From Rhizobiaceae bacterium (GTDB taxonomy: Bacteria; Pseudomonadota; Alphaproteobacteria; Rhizobiales; Rhizobiaceae), in assembly GCA_014238155.1 (NCBI GenBank), contig JABABQ010000020.1:1-42172 (forward strand): a stretch of 42,172 bases of DNA, in the 5' to 3' direction. Position 1 is the first letter of the stretch; each line of letters opens with the position of its first letter. Shown here piece by piece: positions 262 through 31,915 of the stretch. Position numbers and translations under genes: made by a program. Under the pieces are notes generated by a model that saw nothing but the letters and a program-made list of their open reading frames with translations, was not told the origin of the DNA and ran no database searches.

Positions 262-846
262 ATGAAAAAACTAATCGCAGCCGGCGCATTTTTGACTGGT
301 CTTTGTGTAACTTCTGCTGCCTTCGCCGCAGATTGCAGCACAGACGTCAAAAAGGATGACCTGACCGATGAACAGGTTCAGACCCTGTACGACTGTATCA
401 AAACGGAATTGCGCGAAGGTTATGCGTCCAAGGGCGGCGAATTGACGGCGGAATATTCCAGCTGGAAAGCAGCCTCTACATTGCCAGCAGCACCAGGTGT
501 ACACAGCAAGAGATTCCTGTTCACTTTTGTCAACGACACCGGTTTCGATGAATATGTGAAATTTTCCGATGAACGCGGGCCGATGCCCGTCGGTTCGATC
601 ATCGCCAAGGAAAGCTTCAACGTATCCAAAAAGGGTAAGGTCAAGAAAGGTCCCCTATTCTTCATGACCAAAGCCGCCGCAGGTGGAGAATCTGATAAAT
701 ACGGCAATTGGGTTTATGCAGCCTTCTCAACCAAAGGCAAAGTCATGAAAATCAAGCAGAGCTTCTGCCATGATTGCCACAAGGCCTTTGAAGACCAGGA
801 TGCGCTTGGTTATCCTGTGGAGGATTATCGGGTATCCGGTAATTAG
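262..846 (+). CDS. Cytochrome P460-like periplasmic c-type heme protein
   Basis: This 194-residue protein has an N-terminal signal peptide (about residues 1-22, cleavage near AFA-AD). A single c-type heme motif, CHDCH, lies at residues 169-173, close to the C-terminus. A CxxCH placed late after a beta-rich domain, with an aromatic GNWVYAAF segment just upstream, is the layout of the cytochrome P460 family. Characterised members oxidise hydroxylamine or detoxify nitric oxide, using a heme cross-linked to lysine. I cannot assign the cross-link lysine from sequence alone, so catalysis is unproven and electron transfer is possible. The start has a GGAG 9-10 nt upstream. The gene stands alone: a TnpA end lies upstream and a strong terminator downstream. 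Two more P460-like genes occur at 26881 and 28927. Confidence 0.75.
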   Translation: MKKLIAAGAFLTGLCVTSAAFAADCSTDVKKDDLTDEQVQTLYDCIKTELREGYASKGGELTAEYSSWKAASTLPAAPGVHSKRFLFTFVNDTGFDEYVKFSDERGPMPVGSIIAKESFNVSKKGKVKKGPLFFMTKAAAGGESDKYGNWVYAAFSTKGKVMKIKQSFCHDCHKAFEDQDALGYPVEDYRVSGN

Positions 847-4694: not shown

Positions 4695-5927
4695 ATGGAC
4701 TATGATTTTGCCGTAATGTGGAGCGGAGCGAGTTTTGCCGTCCGCTGGCTCCATATAATCACCGGTATCGCCTGGATAGGTTCATCTTTCTATTTCATCG
4801 CGTTGGACCTGGGGCTGCATAAGGCGGATAACCTTCCAGAAGGCGCTCATGGCGAGGAGTGGCAGGTGCACGGGGGCGGATTTTACCATATTCGCAAATA
4901 TCTGGTTGCCCCCAAGGACATGCCTGATCACCTGGTTTGGTTCAAATGGGAATCCTACGTCACCTGGATGTCGGGATTTGCCATGCTGGCAATCGTTTAT
5001 TACGCCGGTGCCGATCTCTATCTGGTTGACCGGACAGTCGCCGATATCAGCACCACAACAGCGATTCTGATATCCTTGGCTTCTCTGGGTTTTGGCTGGG
5101 TGATTTATGACCAGCTGTGCAAGACGAAATTTGGCGACGACAATACGCGGTTGATGCTATTTCTGTTCTTCCTGTTGGTTTTGATGGCCTATGGCTACAC
5201 TCAGGTGTTCAGCGGCCGGGCCGCGTTCCTCCATCTTGGCGCATTCACAGCGACAATTATGTCGGGAAATGTATTCTTCATCATCATGCCAAATCAGCGC
5301 ATTGTGGTTGCTGACTTGCAGGCGGGGCGCACACCGGATGCCAAGTATGGAAAGATCGCCAAGCAGCGCTCGACTCACAATAACTATCTGACGCTACCAG
5401 TCATTTTCATGATGCTCTCGAATCACTATCCGTTGGCATTTGCAACACAGTACAATTGGATCATCGCATCGCTGGTGTTTTTGATGGGGGTGACGATCCG
5501 CCATTATTTCAACTCGATGCACTCCCGAAGCGGCAATCCAACATGGACCTGGATTGCGACAGCAATTTTGTTCGTCATAGCCATGTGGCTTTCAACCATC
5601 CCAAGAACCGACCCGGGCGGTGAAGCCGCAGGCTTCTCACCCCGACAGAAGGTTTTTGCCAGTACCATTGGCTTCGAGGCCGTTGCACAGACAGTCCAGG
5701 GCCGTTGTTCGATGTGCCACGCTGCTGAACCAGTTTGGGAGGGATTGATCGTGGCACCCAATGGCGTATTGCTGGAAAATGAGGCTCAGATTGCTGCTCA
5801 CGCCTATCAGATTTATGTACAATCAGGCGTGAGTCACGCCATGCCTCCCGGTAATTTGACCAACATTTCAATCACCGAAAGACAACAAATTGTCGATTGG
5901 TACAAAGCCGCGACTTCCGGCTCCTAG
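4695..5927 (+). CDS. puuD: Urate hydroxylase PuuD (membrane protein with C-terminal cytochrome c)
   Basis: This 410-residue protein begins with a polytopic membrane domain (about residues 1-300, roughly eight segments, opening with VRWLHIITGIAWIGSSFYFIALDL) and ends with a cytochrome c-like domain. The heme motif CSMCH lies near residues 337-341 and a downstream SHAMPPGNLT supplies the probable axial Met. This is the PuuD architecture of Agrobacterium. That enzyme is a membrane urate oxidase which passes electrons to the respiratory chain rather than to oxygen, making 5-hydroxyisourate. GGGAAG stands 5-10 nt before the ATG. The usual partners (HIU hydrolase, OHCU decarboxylase, allantoinase, xanthine dehydrogenase) are not adjacent. 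The gene is instead followed closely by a malic enzyme on the same strand. Confidence 0.9.
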   Translation: MDYDFAVMWSGASFAVRWLHIITGIAWIGSSFYFIALDLGLHKADNLPEGAHGEEWQVHGGGFYHIRKYLVAPKDMPDHLVWFKWESYVTWMSGFAMLAIVYYAGADLYLVDRTVADISTTTAILISLASLGFGWVIYDQLCKTKFGDDNTRLMLFLFFLLVLMAYGYTQVFSGRAAFLHLGAFTATIMSGNVFFIIMPNQRIVVADLQAGRTPDAKYGKIAKQRSTHNNYLTLPVIFMMLSNHYPLAFATQYNWIIASLVFLMGVTIRHYFNSMHSRSGNPTWTWIATAILFVIAMWLSTIPRTDPGGEAAGFSPRQKVFASTIGFEAVAQTVQGRCSMCHAAEPVWEGLIVAPNGVLLENEAQIAAHAYQIYVQSGVSHAMPPGNLTNISITERQQIVDWYKAATSGS

Positions 5928-21800: not shown

Positions 21801-22082
21801 TTAAGAGTTCTGGTCGGCGGTCTCTGGTCCAAAGGTATTCTTGATCTCTGAAACGAGATCTGCTGGGAAACCTCCCTCTTTGGCATGACGGTAGATGTCG
21901 TCAGCGCTGTCAGCTTCATGAACGCAGTAGAGTTTGTCCCCAGCAGCATAGGTATGGTGCCACACATAGGGTACTCCCAAACCGTCAACGACGGCGTTTG
22001 ATTTGGCCGAGATGTCACATAGTTCGCCAGCAGTCAGCTTGTCGGCGCCAGGAATATTCCGTTCAACGATGAATTTAGGCAT
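21801..22082 (-). CDS. DUF4242 small protein
   Basis: This 93-residue protein begins MPKFIVERNIPGA and continues with DISAKSNAVVDGLG, VPYVWHHTYAAGDKLYCVHEA and AEGGFPADLV-like residues, the pattern of DUF4242. One member, Streptomyces SCO4226, binds nickel, and whether this protein does is unknown. AAGGAGAAAACC stands just before ATG 22082. The longer frame from 22106 is unnecessary. The gene diverges from an HxlR-type regulator at 22228, and the operator-like palindromes between them suggest that regulator controls it. Confidence 0.85.
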   Translation of the reverse strand: MPKFIVERNIPGADKLTAGELCDISAKSNAVVDGLGVPYVWHHTYAAGDKLYCVHEADSADDIYRHAKEGGFPADLVSEIKNTFGPETADQNS

Positions 22083-22139
22083 GGTTTTCTCCTTGAGTTT
22101 CAACAAGCGTAGACTGAACTATTTAGCCCATTTCTGGAT

Positions 22140-22227: not shown

Positions 22228-22974
22228 ATGTACACCAAACCCTATGGACTAATTTGCCCGATAACCCATGCCTGCGAAGTACTGGAACCACGTTGGACCA
22301 TTCCGATACTGACGGAAATGTGGGGTGGGGCGACGCGGTTTAGTGATATTCGACGCGGGATTGGAAACATCTCAACGGCTCTTCTGTCACGGAGATTGAA
22401 AGAACTCGCGGCGCTGGACCTAATCGAAAGGGTGGAAGAACCGACGACTGGTCAAGTCCACTATATCAGGACCCGGAAAGCCGTCGAACTTGAGCCCGTT
22501 CTAGACGCGATGGGCAGGTGGGCTCAACGCAACTTAGTTGCAGAAGCTGCGCTGGAAAACATGACTGTTTCAAATCTGATGTGGCAAATGCGGAACTACA
22601 TCTTTCCCGAACACCTTCCAGACCGTCAGCTTGTTTTCCAATTTAGGTTTAACGATCCCGACTTGGAATACAGCAAATATTGGGCCCTGATCCGGCCTGG
22701 TTTTCCGATTGAAATCTGCGCAACGCCTCCATCCAGTGAGGTCGACCTTTTCATCGAGACAAACTGTATGTCTCTTTCTTCCATAATTCTCAGTCGATCG
22801 ACTATTGATCGCGAACTTGAAGAAGGCCGACTGTTTCTTAGCGGCGACGCCATATTGTCGCGTACTATGAACCGATGGTTTTATCACTGGACCAAGCAGG
22901 AGCGCTCGGAAATAATTCAGCGCCAGGGGGATTTAGTGGATAAAGCTTCTCCTCCGTTAGAGGCTGCCGAATAA
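22228..22974 (+). CDS. HxlR-family transcriptional regulator with C-terminal extension
   Basis: This is a 248-residue protein. Residues about 8-105 are an HxlR winged helix (CPITHACEVLEPRWTIPIL, TRFSDIRRGIGNISTALLSRRLKEL, quoted in two pieces: TRFSDIRRGIGN and ISTALLSRRLKEL). Typical HxlR proteins end near residue 110-140, whereas this one carries about 110 more residues, a possible SCP2-like ligand-binding domain. Cys10 and Cys16 lie near the N-terminus. Redox-sensing HxlR proteins such as YodB use a Cys in that region. AAGGAGAAACCGAA precedes ATG 22228. The upstream double palindrome suggests control of itself and of the divergent DUF4242 gene. Confidence 0.85.
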   Translation: MYTKPYGLICPITHACEVLEPRWTIPILTEMWGGATRFSDIRRGIGNISTALLSRRLKELAALDLIERVEEPTTGQVHYIRTRKAVELEPVLDAMGRWAQRNLVAEAALENMTVSNLMWQMRNYIFPEHLPDRQLVFQFRFNDPDLEYSKYWALIRPGFPIEICATPPSSEVDLFIETNCMSLSSIILSRSTIDRELEEGRLFLSGDAILSRTMNRWFYHWTKQERSEIIQRQGDLVDKASPPLEAAE

Positions 22975-23335: not shown

Positions 23336-24175
23336 TTATTCAACAAGATCTGCGGGCCCTGAATATTTCAGAAGAATGCGTTCCAGTGTTCCGTCTGAAG
23401 CCATGCGCTCGAGGCTCCTATTGATAAGCCGTTTGACCTCGGTTGGTTGTTGTGGACTTAATGTCAGGTAAAGAGGCTGAGACGGAATAATATTGGAGGC
23501 ATCTTGAAAACGAAGATCCTCCAACTTCAGACCGCTGTCTATGAGGCTGTAAAGCATTCGTGCATGAAAACCGAATACGACGTCGCCACGCTTGTGCCGC
23601 AACATCCGCAATGTGCCTTTTGGAGTAAAAGCCCGAACCGCCTTAATTGACCCGCCGCCCTCTCCCACCAGCGGGTTGGCCAAATGCGGGTCAAGACCGG
23701 GATAGTGGAAATTCTCCACGAGTATTGCCACTCGATTTTCAATGTCAGCAACATCATCAATTTTGAAGTGATCGGTCTTCAATGTGATCGCCACGTGATT
23801 AAATGCCATTATCGGCGTTTGCGAAAACTCAAGCGGAATATCCGGTTCATTGCCGACTAAAAATCCATAGGTAATCCAGTCATTTCCCGTGCGCAGTTCT
23901 TCAACCATTCGTTTCCAGGGCATGATCTTTGGCACGATTTGATAGTCCGAGTTTTCAAATATGAGCTGCATAATTTCGGTAATTATGCCGCCCGCCATCG
24001 GATCGTCGGGCTTGGTGATCATCAATGGTTCGACAGTGCCACCAAGTATCAGATACGAGACTTTTCCTTTGACCTGCGCCAGAACCTGCATTGCAACAAA
24101 TGGTGTTGTTGTGAATACAACAAGTGCAATCAGTCCAAGACCGAATATCCAACCAGATCGAACCCAACCAAACAT
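23336..24175 (-). CDS. Periplasmic solute-binding protein (family 3-like)
   Basis: This 279-residue protein has an N-terminal hydrophobic segment (about 8-34) that is a signal peptide or anchor. It is followed by a bilobal binding-protein fold of the amino-acid (SBP_bac_3) type, with a GGIITEIMQLIF segment near 62-73 and a C-terminal LINRSLERMASDGTLERILLKY, quoted as LINRSLERM and DGTLERILLKY. No permease or ATPase gene is near, so it is unlikely to serve an ABC importer encoded here. It is third in line after a histidine kinase and a response regulator (65 bp after the latter). This recalls systems such as TorT/TorS, where a periplasmic binding protein presents the signal to the kinase. Its ligand is unknown. 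Confidence 0.75.
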   Translation of the reverse strand: MFGWVRSGWIFGLGLIALVVFTTTPFVAMQVLAQVKGKVSYLILGGTVEPLMITKPDDPMAGGIITEIMQLIFENSDYQIVPKIMPWKRMVEELRTGNDWITYGFLVGNEPDIPLEFSQTPIMAFNHVAITLKTDHFKIDDVADIENRVAILVENFHYPGLDPHLANPLVGEGGGSIKAVRAFTPKGTLRMLRHKRGDVVFGFHARMLYSLIDSGLKLEDLRFQDASNIIPSQPLYLTLSPQQPTEVKRLINRSLERMASDGTLERILLKYSGPADLVE

Positions 24176-24240
24176 ATTCTATTCCTTCGCAACTTGTGAA
24201 ACACAGCGGCTTAATAAAGTTCGCCTTTCCAATGCCTTGC

Positions 24241-24954
24241 TTAATTGTTAGATTGGAACAGGTATCCAATTCCCCGTACCGTTCTGATGATTTGAGGGTG
24301 AGAGGGATCTTCCTCAATTTTGTGACGAAGTCGATTGATGCGAACGTCAATGCTTCGGTCGTCCGGCTCCCAACTTCTTTGGGAAGTTTCCTCAACCAAT
24401 TCATCCCGGCTGAGTGCGCTGTTTGGCTTTCCGTGAAACAACTCCAGCAGATCGCATTCTCCTGCAGATAATTGAGCGATTGTTCCATCTGCCCTGCGAA
24501 ATACTTTTTCAATTCGATCGTAACTCGCCTGGCCAAATTTATATAATTCGGTGGATTCATCGCTGCCTAATTCGTTGTCGACCATTTCGACACGCCGAAG
24601 CACGCTTCGTACTCTCGCGAGCAGCTCACGCAAACCAAAGGGCTTCACAACGTAATCGTCGGCGCCGGATTCCAAACCAAGGACGCGGTCAGCAACATCA
24701 CCGAATGCAGTGACGATAATGATACCTATCTGCATGGACTCACGAATTTCGCGGGTAAGAGATATCCCATCTTCTCCAGGCAGTCCAAGATCAAGAAGTA
24801 TCAGATCGATTTTGTTTAATTCCAGATGTTGGCGCATCTCTTTACCGCTTGCTGCGGTTGAAACGGTGAAACCACGAAGGCGTAAATATTCTGAAACTGC
24901 GTCCGTCATCTCAGGTTCATCGTCTACCACAAGTATGTGTTTTTGGTCTGTCAC
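24241..24954 (-). CDS. OmpR-family response regulator
   Basis: This 237-residue protein has a receiver domain (about 5-118) with acidic pocket D11/D12, phosphoacceptor D55 in LILLDLGLPG, the T/S position in IIVTAFGD, and Lys in VVKPFG. It is followed by a winged-helix DNA-binding domain (about 140-235, ending RTVRGIGYLF). It is encoded 99 bp downstream of its presumed histidine kinase on the same strand. OmpR-type proteins bind direct repeats with about 10-11 bp spacing. Repeats of about that spacing are seen upstream of the divergent cytochrome gene, which makes that promoter the likely target. Confidence 0.93.
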   Translation of the reverse strand: MTDQKHILVVDDEPEMTDAVSEYLRLRGFTVSTAASGKEMRQHLELNKIDLILLDLGLPGEDGISLTREIRESMQIGIIIVTAFGDVADRVLGLESGADDYVVKPFGLRELLARVRSVLRRVEMVDNELGSDESTELYKFGQASYDRIEKVFRRADGTIAQLSAGECDLLELFHGKPNSALSRDELVEETSQRSWEPDDRSIDVRINRLRHKIEEDPSHPQIIRTVRGIGYLFQSNN

Positions 24955-25053
24955 CAGGAGGAACCCAACATTTTCAGAGCCTACTTCAAGCTTGGAACCA
25001 ATCGTATTTGTTCGGCGAACGAAGAAAGAACAAACAGATTAGGTGTTAACCGA

Positions 25054-26526
25054 TCACTGGTCAATTATTCCGGTAATTTTATCGGAAATGGCCGGAAGAA
25101 CTATGATAAATTTGGCTCCTCCATTTGGGTTAATTTCAGCTGTCAGATCCCCACCATGGTCCCGAACGACCTCACGGGCGTATGATAGGCCGAGCCCAGT
25201 GCCCTGGCCTTCGCGCTTGGTTGTATAAAATGGCTCGAAAATTTGCTCTATGTTTTCAGCTTGGATGCCCGGCCCGTTGTCTGAAATTGAAATTCTGATG
25301 ACCGAACCTTGCTGCTGGACTTCAGCTTCTGCTGAAATTTGACGCTCGGCTGTGTTTTCCAGCACGGCTTGCTCCGCATTTACAACCAGATTGAGTAGAA
25401 CCTGCGTAATCTGGCTTTTGTCGGCAAACACGAGCGGCAACTTACTTGGAATGATGACTCTGGTTTCGATACCAGCCTGAATAATCTGGTAATCCAGGAT
25501 GTCCAGTACTTCACGTATGATCCCGCCAACATCAACCTGTTCTTTTTGGACATCTCGGCGATGGGCCAATGCAAGGAATCTTTTGACGATCACTCCGCAA
25601 CGGTTTGCCATCGCATGAATTTTTTCTCCCCGCTTTCGAGTGTTGGCATCTGTAGATGTTTCAACCAGAAGCTCACTTTGTACGGCCAATATCGACAATG
25701 GATTATTCAGTTCATGGGACACGCCTGCAAGCAATGTTCCAAGGGTCGCGATTTTCTCACGATGAAGAATGTCTTGATGCTGAGAGTTGATACGTTCGAG
25801 AAGTTCGTTGGTTCTCTTTACAACATTTCCCAATTCGTCGTGCTCATGGCCTTTGGGAGTTGTCAGGCGGTGTATGCCCGCCGGAGCCGCCACGAGTTTT
25901 GATATTGCGTCTGCGTAAGATAACAGTGGCAGGGTCAGTGAACGATGAAACACAATTGCCAGTGTTACACCCAATAAAATAAACTGAAACATCAGGCCAG
26001 TTACGAGCGTTACGGCACCTGCAAAGAATGTTTCGCCAGCAATTTCGGGGCTGGCACGCAATTCGATTTTTCCAACAATTTTCTTGTTCGAGTTTGTTGA
26101 TTGAGCTTCAAGATCGGAGTTATCAAACAGATCCCGTTGAACAAATATTAGATCGTCGAAAAGAAAGTGCGCCAACCTGTCGGTGTATGAAAAATGTACG
26201 GTTCGGTGATGCTCAGCGATTATTTGGCCAAGGTCTGTGGAAATCCGTGCCCACTCCAAATTCTCGAATTGAAACAGTCCGTCCAATGCCGTTTTTGCTT
26301 GAATCTTATCGACATGAAATGCAGCGCGTGATGCAGCGCCCGAGGCCATGTTAATTTGCTGATTGAGAGTGTTCGATAGATTTTCTCGTTCAGCCGAATA
26401 CAACTGGTAAGTTTCAACGAGCGAAATCAAAGATGCAATCACGACTATAACAGCAACAGAATAGCTCGCTTGACGTACCGCTAGTTTGTTTCGCACCAAA
26501 TCCAACATAATTAGTTCCAACCGCAA
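25054..26526 (-). CDS. Sensor histidine kinase
   Basis: This 490-residue membrane kinase has a first membrane helix at about 20-41 and a periplasmic domain at about 42-165. A second helix (about 170-195) and a HAMP-like linker (about 196-250) follow. The dimerisation/phosphoacceptor domain has H271 in AGVSHELNNPLS. The ATPase domain shows NLVVNAEQAV (N box), SDNGPGIQ (G1), FEPFYTTK (F box) and GTGLGLSYAREVV (G2). The small periplasmic sensor has no recognisable fold to me. The start could be ATG 26526 or 26508. It heads a minus-strand operon with the response regulator and solute-binding protein, divergent from the P460 gene at 26881. Confidence 0.93.
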   Translation of the reverse strand: MRLELIMLDLVRNKLAVRQASYSVAVIVVIASLISLVETYQLYSAERENLSNTLNQQINMASGAASRAAFHVDKIQAKTALDGLFQFENLEWARISTDLGQIIAEHHRTVHFSYTDRLAHFLFDDLIFVQRDLFDNSDLEAQSTNSNKKIVGKIELRASPEIAGETFFAGAVTLVTGLMFQFILLGVTLAIVFHRSLTLPLLSYADAISKLVAAPAGIHRLTTPKGHEHDELGNVVKRTNELLERINSQHQDILHREKIATLGTLLAGVSHELNNPLSILAVQSELLVETSTDANTRKRGEKIHAMANRCGVIVKRFLALAHRRDVQKEQVDVGGIIREVLDILDYQIIQAGIETRVIIPSKLPLVFADKSQITQVLLNLVVNAEQAVLENTAERQISAEAEVQQQGSVIRISISDNGPGIQAENIEQIFEPFYTTKREGQGTGLGLSYAREVVRDHGGDLTAEINPNGGAKFIIVLPAISDKITGIIDQ

Positions 26527-26880
26527 ACATTAAAGATCCCAAATGTGATGATCCTGCACCGCAATCAGAGTTGCTGCTCTGCCACCGCGTCGGTTGATGT
26601 CTCAATTGCTACGCATCTCTAACAACAGCTTGGGTGCAAAACATAACACTGGCATTCACGTCGCGGAACTCAGAATTTACAAATGTTACAAATGTAACAA
26701 TCAACAAGACTTCTGAAACATCGTTTACACGATTTTACAATGTCTCGCTTCTTGCACCTGGCGGTTGAGATTACGCTGTTCGTCAAGAAAGTCTTTGGCA
26801 ATCGGCTTGTTTGAGGTCGGGTAAACTCAGTGAAGTTCCGCCAAAGATTCAGCCAAAGATTCAGACTGAGGAGACAAGCA
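26527..26880. promoter_or_regulatory. Divergent regulatory region with OmpR-type direct repeats
   Basis: This 354-bp region separates the kinase operon from the cytochrome cluster. TTACAAATG is repeated exactly in tandem (26677-26685 and 26686-26694), followed by a degenerate third unit TAACAATC. A second pair, TTACA at 26725 and 26735, has exact 10-bp spacing. These are plausible sites for the neighbouring response regulator. A perfect 12-bp tandem repeat, CCAAAGATTCAG (26841-26852 and 26853-26864), lies just before the ribosome-binding site GAGGAGA. I could not fix promoter hexamers. Confidence 0.55.
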
Positions 26881-27513
26881 ATGAATGATAAACCTGTCAC
26901 AAAAACACTTCGGTATACATGTGTATTAGGCTTGATGTTTGCAGCGTCATTAACGGCATTCGCTATCAATGATCCAGCTGCGGCTGCGGATGAATATGTT
27001 CCTGAGTTTACCAGTGATAAGATGTTAAAACTTCCCGGCAACAACCTGTGGCGCGAGTGGACATTTATAGGATCGCTGGTAACTCCCAACGCACTCAATG
27101 ATGGTTCTGCCCCATTTCCTGAACACCACATGATTTATGTTGAGCCCAAAACTTGGGAACACTACAAACAGACGGGCAAGTTCCGAGAAGGTTCAGTTCT
27201 TGCTAAAGAACTGTCCCGGGTTCTCGCCCCAGATGGCGCCAACGAAAATGGTTCGACCGACGAAGTGAGTGGAACCGGCTATTTTAGCGGAGATTTCTCG
27301 GGGTTTGAGATCACCATCAAAAGCAAAGCGTTGTATCCTGATGAGCCTGGTAATTGGGCTTACTATACGTTCGGTCATCAACCACAACCGTACAATTCAA
27401 CCGCTATGAAACAACCTGCCGCGGCGTGCAATGCCTGCCACGAGGGTGTGGCTGCTGAAGATTTTGTCTTTAGCCAGTTTTACAATGTGCTTCAGGCAGC
27501 GAAGCCCAAATGA
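26881..27513 (+). CDS. Cytochrome P460 family protein
   Basis: This 210-residue protein has a signal peptide (about 1-37, ending in an Ala-rich AAAADE) and a single heme c motif, CNACH, at 183-187. Before it lie GNWAYYTFG and KQPAAACNACH. After it comes DFVFSQFYNVL, the C-terminal signature of true P460 cytochromes, which makes it the most typical of the three in this window. Family members from ammonia and methane oxidisers convert hydroxylamine to nitrous oxide or handle nitric oxide. That activity here is inference. ATG 26881 was chosen over GTG 26830 because of GAGGAGA 5-11 nt upstream and the proper signal peptide. It is followed by a 5-aminolevulinate synthase gene on the same strand. 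Confidence 0.88.
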   Translation: MNDKPVTKTLRYTCVLGLMFAASLTAFAINDPAAAADEYVPEFTSDKMLKLPGNNLWREWTFIGSLVTPNALNDGSAPFPEHHMIYVEPKTWEHYKQTGKFREGSVLAKELSRVLAPDGANENGSTDEVSGTGYFSGDFSGFEITIKSKALYPDEPGNWAYYTFGHQPQPYNSTAMKQPAAACNACHEGVAAEDFVFSQFYNVLQAAKPK

Positions 27514-27620
27514 TGTCAATCCGGTGGAGAGAACTCTTTGTAACAGTTGTCCAGTTCTGAGCCACTATCAGATTGACCTGGATGGTTGCTCTTAATCCAA
27601 CAACGGAAGCAGGGTCTAAA

Positions 27621-28835
27621 ATGGATTTTGATGGAATTTTCCGTGGTGAACTAGACGTTCTGCATGAGGGTGGAAATTACAGGGTGTTCGCTGAATTGGA
27701 GCGTCAGGCCGGACAATTTCCCAGAGCTTCCCGCTTTGTCAACGATTTCGACTACGAAGTCACAGTCTGGTGCTCAAACGATTATTTGGGCATGGGGCAA
27801 CATGCCAAAGTATCAGCCGCCATGCACACGGCGCTATCTCGGTGCGGTGCGGGTGCTGGTGGCACTCGAAATATTTCGGGAACAAATCGCTATCATGCGC
27901 TTTTGGAAGATGAATTGGCAGATTTGCACAATAAGGAAGCAGCCTTGTTGTTCACATCGGGTTATGTTTCCAACTCGACCACACTTGCGACGCTTGGTTC
28001 ACGGATCAACAATTGTGTAATTTTTTCAGATGAAATGAACCACGCATCGATGATTGAAGGTATCCGCTATTCAAAGGCGGAAAAATGCATATGGAAGCAC
28101 AATTCACCAGAAGATTTGGATCACAAACTTAGTCAGTATTCTCCTCATGTACCAAAAATTGTCGCGTTTGAAAGCGTCTATTCAATGGACGGCGATATAG
28201 CCCCCATCAAGGCGATTTGCGAAGTTGCTGATAGACATGGAGCGTTGACTTATTTGGACGAAGTCCATGCCGTCGGCATGTACGGACCACGCGGTGGTGG
28301 TATAGCAGAACGTGAAGGGCTGACCGATCAAATCACAGTCATCGAAGGTACACTCGGCAAGGCCTATGGTGTGATGGGGGGGTACATCGCCTCCTCTGGG
28401 CTCTTGTGCGATTTTGTCAGAAGTTTCGCGCCTGGTTTCATATTTACCACTGCGCTGCCGCCAACAATCGCGGCGGGCGCTATCGCCAGCGTCCAACACC
28501 TGAAACACAGTTGCCTTGAGCGTCAGCAACATTTTGAGCGGGTCCAACTCGTGAAACGTGAACTCGACGCCAGGGGAATACCATATGTTCGCAACCCAAG
28601 TCATATCATCCCGGTGCTCGTCGGCGATGCTGCAAAGTGCAAGTGGATAAGCGATTTTTTGCTGGATAATCACGGAATATACCTGCAGCCAATAAACCAT
28701 CCCACAGTCCCGAAAGGCACTGAGCGCCTTCGGATTACGCCCACTCCACTTCATTCGGACATCGAAATAAATCGCCTCGTTTCAGCGTTGGATGACCTTT
28801 GGTCTCAATGCGCCCTCTCGCGCGCAGTTGCCTGA
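27621..28835 (+). CDS. hemA: 5-aminolevulinate synthase
   Basis: This 404-residue PLP enzyme condenses glycine and succinyl-CoA to 5-aminolevulinate, the first step of heme synthesis by the C4 pathway. Active-site positions match Rhodobacter capsulatus HemA with an offset of one: H141 (NHASMIEG), D213 and H216 (YLDEVHAVG), and the PLP lysine K247 (GTLGKAYG). [26 protein letters not shown] and [21 protein letters not shown] are also typical. ATG 27621 was chosen to match family length, although in-frame starts exist at 27573 (TTG) and 27582. It is flanked on both sides by P460-type cytochrome genes. It is probably a second, specialised copy; the housekeeping hemA would lie elsewhere. Confidence 0.93.
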
Positions 28836-28926
28836 TGGCGTCGAACTTTTTCAGTGTCTGCGACAATCAATCGAAGTCTGACTAGTCGCTGCAATTATTC
28901 AACCAAAAGCAAAGTATGGAGACACC

Positions 28927-29544
28927 ATGACATTTGAATTCGAAAACAAAATACGTTGGGCCGCTTATGTCACGGCAGCAACGGTGGCTTTTGTTTATCC
29001 ATTATCGACATCCTTTTCCTCTGATGCCAATCCCGACGAGTTCAAAAAACAATTTGAAGAACTCATTTCTGATGGCTTGGAAAAAGCCACAAAGTCCACG
29101 ACTGATACCGGTGCGGCGATGGGACATGTTCCGACAGAGATTGGCGAACTATTCGCTTATCTGAAAGAAGGCAAATACAAGGATTTTCCCGTGAGCGACA
29201 AGGAAACATATAAATCCAGAGGCCCACATGCAAAGTTTGGAAGGCCGGTTCGTGTTTTCTTCGATGCCGCGATTGCCAAGTCTTTATCCATGGAAGGTAC
29301 CACCCATGCGGCTGGATCATCTGTGGTGAAGGAGATGTTCAAAAAGGATGGCACCACATTGGATGGCTGGGCAGTAATGACAAAAACCCGGGAAAACAGC
29401 GACAAGGGAAAAGGCTGGTTCTGGTCGGAGATAATATTGACCGATGCTGAACCAAAAATTGTGGCTGCAGGAAACGGCGTCCGCCTTTGCAGCGGTTGCC
29501 ACAGTCGGGGCAAGGATTTTGTGCTTTCCAAATTGCCCAAATAG
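28927..29544 (+). CDS. Cytochrome P460-like c-type heme protein
   Basis: This 205-residue protein has a hydrophobic N-terminal segment (about 12-30) that acts as signal peptide or anchor. Its C-terminal heme c motif, CSGCH (188-192), is followed by SRGKDFVLSKLP, resembling the DFVFxxF end of P460 proteins. GWFWSEIIL before the motif corresponds to the aromatic strand of the family. The N-terminal region (about 35-70) is charged and probably helical. The protein is more diverged than the P460 at 26881, so it may be a redox partner or a P460 of another specificity. GGAGACACC precedes the ATG. It lies 91 bp after hemA on the same strand and is probably co-transcribed. Confidence 0.75.
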   Translation: MTFEFENKIRWAAYVTAATVAFVYPLSTSFSSDANPDEFKKQFEELISDGLEKATKSTTDTGAAMGHVPTEIGELFAYLKEGKYKDFPVSDKETYKSRGPHAKFGRPVRVFFDAAIAKSLSMEGTTHAAGSSVVKEMFKKDGTTLDGWAVMTKTRENSDKGKGWFWSEIILTDAEPKIVAAGNGVRLCSGCHSRGKDFVLSKLPK

Positions 29545-31510: not shown

Positions 31511-31915
31511 CTACGCCGTGCGCAGGCTCGCTTCAAAGCTTTCTCGGTCGTTCTGAATTTTTTGAAGTACATTTTTCATTGCGAACGGACGATTATCATG
31601 CTCACCGCTCCAAATAATGATCTCCAGCATCAATGGCGCCAGATCGTGTCCCTTCTTGGTAAGGGTGTAGATGAAACTACGCCGGTTGTCGGGATCTCGT
31701 GATTTCACGATAATGCCTGCTGCTTCAAGATGCTTGAGGCGGGCAATAAGTATGTTGGTGGCAAACCCCTCATCGGCTTCCATGAACTCACTATATGTTT
31801 TTTTGCCACGCAGCATGATCTCTCGAATGATCAGCAGGCTCCACCGATCTCCGAATGTGTCGAGTCCAAACGCCACGGGGCATCCAGTCTCTCTAAATTT
31901 GTTTTCTGGTTTCAT
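31511..31915 (-). CDS. HxlR-family transcriptional regulator
   Basis: This 134-residue protein has a typical HxlR winged helix: GCPVAFGLDTFGDRWSLLII, YSEFMEADEGFATNILIARL and TKKGHDLAPLML. Cys12 sits at the position used by redox-sensing members such as YodB to detect electrophiles or disulfide stress, so such sensing is a reasonable inference. It is the first gene of a minus-strand unit with the disulfide oxidoreductase. It is divergent from a 36-codon ORF, and two matching 13-bp palindromes between them are its likely operators. Confidence 0.92.
   Translation of the reverse strand: MKPENKFRETGCPVAFGLDTFGDRWSLLIIREIMLRGKKTYSEFMEADEGFATNILIARLKHLEAAGIIVKSRDPDNRRSFIYTLTKKGHDLAPLMLEIIIWSGEHDNRPFAMKNVLQKIQNDRESFEASLRTA

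Follow-up and report, generated by a model that had tools for sequence, protein, structure and literature searches.

A 5-aminolevulinate synthase (ALAS) gene lies between two cytochrome P460-type genes in a Rhizobiaceae bacterium (Alphaproteobacteria, Rhizobiales), and we find that this ALAS is an extra copy, that ALAS genes recur beside P460 genes in other genomes, and that the linkage has more than one origin. The region studied spans positions 23,336-29,544 of a 42,172-nt stretch (the window) of contig JABABQ010000020.1, assembly GCA_014238155.1; it encodes on the plus strand a canonical P460 (P460_1), the ALAS and a second, divergent P460-like cytochrome (P460_2), and on the minus strand a histidine kinase (HK), a response regulator (RR) and a solute-binding protein (SBP). 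The gene content, the active-site residues, and fusions that join the two kinds of P460 elsewhere are also direct observations. In a broader view, these loci would represent a recurrent, independently assembled module of Alphaproteobacteria, in which a canonical P460 and a partner devoid of the distal carboxylate come with their own ALAS and, in four loci, with ccm genes, one regulator serving enzyme, cofactor synthesis and cofactor attachment; we regard the case for this generalization as evenly balanced.

An accessory ALAS recurs at P460 loci

The ALAS of the window matches TIGR01821 with 647 bits (cut-off 339) and has the active-site residues, whose roles in the enzyme are general background. 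A second ALAS, 68% identical to it, is encoded on contig 36 of the same genome, which excludes the possibility, raised in an earlier note on this DNA, that this hemA is the sole housekeeping copy. P460 loci were collected by scanning genome contigs with an alignment of six P460s, and the best 80 of 199 relatives were examined with up to 10 kb per side; a stricter subset comprises the 51 loci with at least 7 kb of flanking DNA on both sides. The adjacency of P460 and ALA synthase, for which the earlier note had proposed a neighbourhood search, does recur: besides the window, 13 of the 80 loci, and 9 of the 51, have an ALAS close to P460. One candidate, L068, 33% identical and read as BioF-like, was removed from the counts.

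With the window included, the linked ALAS is on the P460 strand in 13 of 14 cases. The gap between ALAS and a P460-type gene is about 60-550 bp in 9 of the 14, and 5.6-6.4 kb in four (L047, L064, L075, L093), where ccmF, ccmB, ccmC and a CcmH/CycH TPR gene, as identified by clustering, lie in between; a Pfam run on L047, the only locus so examined, also recognized ccmH and an ABC-type ATPase at the ccmA place. Three of these four genomes have a second ccmB match at another place, a weak one in one of the genomes, and the fourth genome has a single match. L038 is the remaining case, its ALAS lying on the opposite strand at 4.5 kb from P460.

Copy number was checked in the 14 genomes with a linked ALAS and in 30 of the 67 P460 genomes without one. 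ALAS is present in all 44, with at least one further copy in 13 of the 14 linked-ALAS genomes, that of the window included, versus two or more copies in only 8 of the 30 (Fisher p 5e-5). The active-site residues are kept at 14 positions across the 14 linked copies, the single exception being a Thr to Ala change in one copy. P460 also occurs on 20 plasmid records, of which the one neighbourhood examined (Sinorhizobium mexicanum) is without ALAS.

Origins of the linked ALAS

The relationships of these copies were studied with a maximum-likelihood tree of 32 ALAS sequences (14 linked, 18 unlinked), from which an over-long outgroup was left out. Three clades of linked copies can be recognized: clade A (Marinicaulis, Parvularculaceae, Hyphomonadaceae, Caulobacterales; support 100/100), clade B (Ruegeria, Epibacterium; support 99/98), which is nested among other Rhodobacterales copies, and clade C (the window ALAS and L038; support 100/99); two more linked copies, from OFTM110 and Roseovarius aestuarii, stand separately. 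A single clade of all linked ALAS, the only grouping set independently of the tree, is rejected with p-AU 2e-6. Of the four groupings defined after inspection of the tree, the test also rejects A+B, B+C, and C joined with the two separate rows, and it rejects A+C only weakly (p 0.04). The supported branches force at least 4 changes between the linked and unlinked labels, and ALAS was probably recruited to P460 loci at least three times; the tree alone does not separate gain from loss, repeated recruitment being its simplest reading. The earlier note had viewed the hemA as a dedicated supply of heme precursor, and this view is well supported by the second copy, by P460 linkage in other gene orders and by more than one recruitment, which suggests that these P460 cytochromes can be accompanied by a heme supply of their own.

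Organization of the window locus

All six genes were confirmed at the coordinates reported earlier and assigned to their families. Pfam matches agree with the previous reading of the minus strand as a histidine kinase, an OmpR-type regulator and a binding protein; profile matches do the same for the plus strand, where the P460_2 call is based on its CxxCH motif and its relatives. The features are as follows.

23336..24175, minus strand: orphan periplasmic binding protein, SBP_bac_3 (PF00497, E 5e-8, 33 bits, cut-off 26)
24241..24954, minus strand: OmpR-family response regulator (PF00072 Response_reg and PF00486 Trans_reg_C)
25054..26508, minus strand: membrane histidine kinase (HisKA and HATPase_c; likely start ATG 26508, ORF opens with TTG 26526)
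26509..26880, no strand: divergent intergenic region common to both arms (372 bp)
26677..26698, plus strand: candidate operator TTACAAATG-TTACAAATG-TAAC, a direct repeat (TTACAAATGTTACAAATGTAAC) picked after the fact, putative function
26881..27513, plus strand: canonical cytochrome P460, P460_1 (PF16694, E 6e-22, 78.8 bits, cut-off 27; likely start ATG 26881)
27621..28835, plus strand: ALAS, accessory copy (TIGR01821; likely start ATG 27621, ORF opens with TTG 27573)
28927..29544, plus strand: P460_2, a divergent P460-like second cytochrome (heme motif CSGCH; retains the Lys, with Ala in place of the carboxylate)

The minus-strand arm has an operon-like order (HK, regulator, SBP) with gaps of 99 and 65 bp, and the plus-strand arm reads P460_1, ALAS, P460_2 with gaps of 107 and 91 bp. 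GC content is 0.466-0.478 across 22-28 kb and 0.495-0.58 elsewhere in the window, except for a dip to 0.474 at 38-40 kb; given the lower value at 22-28 kb, it is possible that the locus arrived recently.

The two cytochromes

P460_1 carries the heme motif CNACH and lies above the PF16694 cut-off, so that both family criteria assign it to the P460s; its closest relatives in the PDB are Nitrosomonas P460s (E about 1e-41). Counting by hand on the alignment with these relatives identifies the cross-link residue as Lys110, the distal carboxylate as Glu144 and the capping residue as Phe80 (numbering of the 211-residue query; one lower from ATG 26881). The corresponding residues of active P460 enzymes appear in a table of a 2025 family review (PMC11928373). 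In a canonical alignment of 81 rows, window included, picked by similarity to the window P460 and by the CxxCH motif, the three positions are occupied by Phe in 81, by Lys in 81, and by Glu in 76 or Asp in 5. Since Lys, Glu and Phe are found where active enzymes have them, hydroxylamine chemistry is likely for P460_1; as far as residues can tell, a hydroxylamine-type P460 is thus borne out. The substrate may be hydroxylamine or NO, and the two heme proteins beside the ALAS likely detoxify reactive nitrogen compounds.

P460_1 matches occur in 12 of 297 genomes of the window's family, its own included, and this genome has five P460-type matches, four above the cut-off and P460_2 below it. One further P460-family cytochrome, absent from the earlier note, lies in the window itself (262-846, plus strand; 40.6 bits, above the cut-off), and has a relative (43%) within the Marinicaulis P460 cluster L047.

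P460_2 falls under the PF16694 cut-off (19.8 vs 27 bits). Its cross-link Lys position is filled (VVKEM aligns with the Lys of the P460b proteins described below), and Ala replaces the distal carboxylate of active enzymes. It was not found in 150 other genomes of the family, nor on the plasmids searched; its relatives are the C-terminal halves of two 375-residue proteins, from a Lysobacterales metagenome-assembled genome (L108, 47%) and from Flavobacteriaceae (L110, 43%), whose N-terminal halves match P460_1 at 42% and 47%, respectively. Both fusions contain two CxxCH motifs and two P460 stretches apiece, and their C-terminal halves keep the Lys and the Ala seen in P460_2. A structural model of P460_2 (pLDDT 68, with P460 rows in the input alignment) has P460 or c'-beta proteins as its top seven PDB matches; the best, with E 6e-4 and TM 0.40/0.55, is the sole match under E 0.001. 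Because the two cytochromes form one diheme protein elsewhere, we propose that P460_2 acts as a partner heme domain of P460_1.

A different second P460 (P460b) is close to the first in 47 of the 80 loci, usually directly after it. A 54-row alignment combines the P460b proteins, one of them entered twice, with P460_2 and its two relatives; Lys is present in 53 of 54 rows and Phe occupies the carboxylate position in 50. Two P460b variants were also seen: in L054 (10699-11688) a fusion joins P460b with a class I cytochrome c domain, likely a built-in electron acceptor, and in L091 (10586-10849, Epibacterium ulvae) the P460b-like gene after P460 seems shortened to an 87-aa ORF.

Regulators and the SBP-kinase arm

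LysR-type genes that fall into a single similarity cluster occur in 58 of 81 loci; in 36 loci the gene is divergent and less than 1 kb upstream of P460, and 12 of the 13 linked-ALAS loci carry it. As LysR is a large family, some of the 58 matches may be due to chance. The window carries the SBP-HK-RR operon where other loci usually have the LysR gene. The earlier note had also suggested a neighbourhood search for HK-RR-SBP as a conserved part of the system, and here the result was negative: the window SBP is found in none of 150 other genomes of the family and in 1 of 336 other genomes of the class, in that case without a kinase alongside, and among the 80 loci the SBP-HK-RR set was not found with P460. 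A conserved partnership is therefore rejected, and the link of this operon to P460 is lineage-specific. Matches of 25-39% to the HK or the RR in L044, L060, L062, L067, L086, L101, L102 and L117 are read as background; L062 and L067 have both, at roughly 3-5 kb from P460.

SBP relatives are present on seven plasmid records, three of which were examined: in L151 and L156 (Vibrio, 29%) the gene is divergent beside a kinase, and the third, L152, has no annotated kinase at up to 5 kb from the gene. The two Vibrio cases make a coupling between SBP and kinase credible. The arrangement resembles, by analogy, TorT-TorS-TorR, in which a binding protein, a kinase and an OmpR-type regulator likewise face a target operon, and TorR is the best NCBIfam for the window regulator, yet with 211 bits versus a cut-off of 275. 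TorS is a hybrid kinase that includes a receiver and an Hpt domain; in the window kinase only HisKA and HATPase-type domains were found, with no receiver or Hpt; the binding protein, being SBP_bac_3, differs from the TorT family. Thus the notion that the orphan SBP signals to the kinase, as first put forward, remains plausible from the Vibrio relatives, while its TorT/TorS precedent is reduced to an analogy. A plausible OmpR-family site, chosen post hoc, is TTACAAATGTTACAAATGTAAC, a repeat pattern with a single exact match genome-wide. Overall, two-component control of the P460 module, local to this lineage, is plausible.

Proposed mechanism and alternative explanations

These results can be interpreted as a self-provisioning P460 module under SBP-HK-RR control, an explanation that, taken as a whole, we consider moderately probable. 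P460_1 would be exported, receive heme c and form the Lys-heme cross-link; in the periplasm it would oxidise hydroxylamine or handle NO, with P460_2 possibly assisting through binding, electron transfer or formation of a hetero-oligomer. The extra ALAS would be co-expressed, such that the output of 5-aminolevulinate (ALA) and heme rises with that of the cytochromes, into which the additional ALA would flow. The SBP would bind a small molecule and signal through the kinase, and the regulator would activate the module at the TTACAAATG repeats.

Several observations weigh against this interpretation. ALAS is not obligatory, since 67 of the 80 P460 loci have none in the examined DNA, and among nine P460 regions taken from the window's own family (its own second P460 counted) only L028 has one. 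Co-transcription with P460 is not general either, given the distance and strand of the ALAS in the nearest relative. The SBP-HK-RR set was not found with P460 at the other loci, and the host has no Cu-nitrite reductase above the cut-off (41.6 vs 296 bits) and no match to ammonia monooxygenase (AMO), a weak negative, as the same search matched no control genome either. Loss of heme feedback in the linked ALAS was also considered and rejected: a His/Cys pair of heme ligands, described for feedback in Caulobacter and R. capsulatus ALAS in an excerpt of PMC6154995, fails to separate linked from unlinked copies, being present in some linked ALAS (Ruegeria, Epibacterium) and missing from both copies in other genomes, and both ALAS of the window's genome keep the Cys and have Lys in place of the His.

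As to the ALAS, some proximity to P460 is expected by chance because all 44 genomes checked have the enzyme; the expected frequency is only about 1% (estimated for two copies in 4 Mb with 20 kb examined) against 13 of 80 observed, with a binomial tail, which ignores relatedness, of 2e-12 at 1% and 7e-9 at 2%. The ALAS tree, in which the linked copies are not one clade, is better evidence than these figures, and a chance neighbourhood appears extremely improbable. Rather than feeding P460, the linked ALAS could be a back-up isozyme that sustains heme synthesis when hydroxylamine, which traps pyridoxal phosphate (PLP) as an oxime, poisons PLP enzymes. The linked copy is indeed the extra one, and ALAS is described as PLP dependent in excerpts of PMC11442138 and PMC6154995; but the extra copy is likewise a PLP enzyme with the same active site, and the ccm genes in the same run at four loci point to cytochrome c production, which leaves this role quite improbable. 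We find it doubtful, though a more serious contender, that an accessory hemA settles beside heme-protein operons in general, the P460 link being one unspecific case. The plasmid hemA of Rhizobium sp. Pop5 adjoins ccoG, ccoS, an fnr-type gene and ccmE, and 5 of the 80 loci have hemN-like genes and fnr-type genes beside P460; on the other hand, P460 loci acquired an ALAS separately more than once, and the hemA of Agrobacterium pAt2, the other plasmid examined (2 of 178 records), has no heme-protein neighbours. This alternative retains the heme-supply meaning of the ALAS and lowers its specificity only.

It is also conceivable, if somewhat unlikely, that the SBP-HK-RR operon has nothing to do with the P460 arm beyond facing away from it, as its absence from other P460 loci would suggest; against this stand the 372 bp of common intergenic DNA with a tandem repeat, which we take to be of the OmpR-family kind, at the place that a divergent regulator occupies in other loci. 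Finally, P460_1 might in vivo bind NO or have a peroxidase-like activity without oxidising hydroxylamine. Globin genes near P460 in 8 of the 80 loci would fit, as would the account that PMC11928373 gives of related proteins: hydroxylamine is not turned over by the P460 that has the Lys and lacks the carboxylate, and gas binding is proposed for c'-beta members, one of which has peroxidase-like activity. Since the proton acceptor is Glu or Asp in all 81 canonical rows, we judge this unlikely.

Other neighbours

The nearest locus (L028/L038, on one contig) has a P460 76% identical over 172 residues, an ALAS 77% identical, two truncated globins and a cupredoxin, the whole set within 12.6 kb; globin matches occur in L038-L041, L044-L046 and L110. 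Globins and cupredoxin would fit the handling of reactive nitrogen, with the copper protein as a possible electron acceptor. In the window an FAD oxidoreductase (NF004992; 30097-31479, minus strand) directly follows P460_2, and similar oxidoreductases are near P460 in L110 (44%), L104 (73%), and L032 and L033 (70-73%). A SCO4226-like protein and two HxlR-type regulators flank the cluster (21801-22106, minus; 22231-22974, plus; 31511-31915, minus), and a membrane protein that has a Urate_ox_N domain and whose end matches cytochrome c weakly is encoded at 4695-5927 on the plus strand. In L073, L082, L084, L099 and L112, P460 is near hemN-like radical-SAM, FNR/CRP-type and universal-stress-like genes (Pfam on L073 only); we take these gene names, and a likeness to cbb3 oxidase regions, as assumptions.

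Relation to known systems and significance

P460_1 is like the P460s of Nitrosomonas europaea and Methylococcus capsulatus in its c-heme motif, cross-link Lys and distal carboxylate; its capping Phe is that presumed in N. europaea, while M. capsulatus has Arg. Unlike these, it lies in a gene run with an ALAS and a second P460, in a host for which AMO gave no match, a weak negative. P460_2 shares its combination of Lys with Ala at the carboxylate position with NsP460 of Nitrosomonas sp. (PDB 6amg), from which it differs in being distant (its PDB sequence matches include no P460), under the Pfam cut-off, and longer in its N-terminal part. A Rhizobium plasmid hemA likewise adjoins heme-protein assembly genes (cco, ccmE), whereas the window ALAS lies between two P460 genes. 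The earlier note knew of no system with such a composition, and a search of the open-access literature likewise found no description of a P460-ALAS module; the accessible portion of a Nitrobacter paper (PMC12213059) mentions P460 genes and not ALAS.

Most work on P460 concerns ammonia and methane oxidisers, and here it is found in an ordinary marine heterotroph. As an extra ALA synthase has been captured more than once, these cells seem to need heme on demand when P460 is made, and the inducer of the linked ALAS would reveal what triggers P460. The ALAS-P460 linkage would also be a genomic marker for P460 systems that require much heme, and it might bear on the release of N2O and NO by non-nitrifying bacteria.

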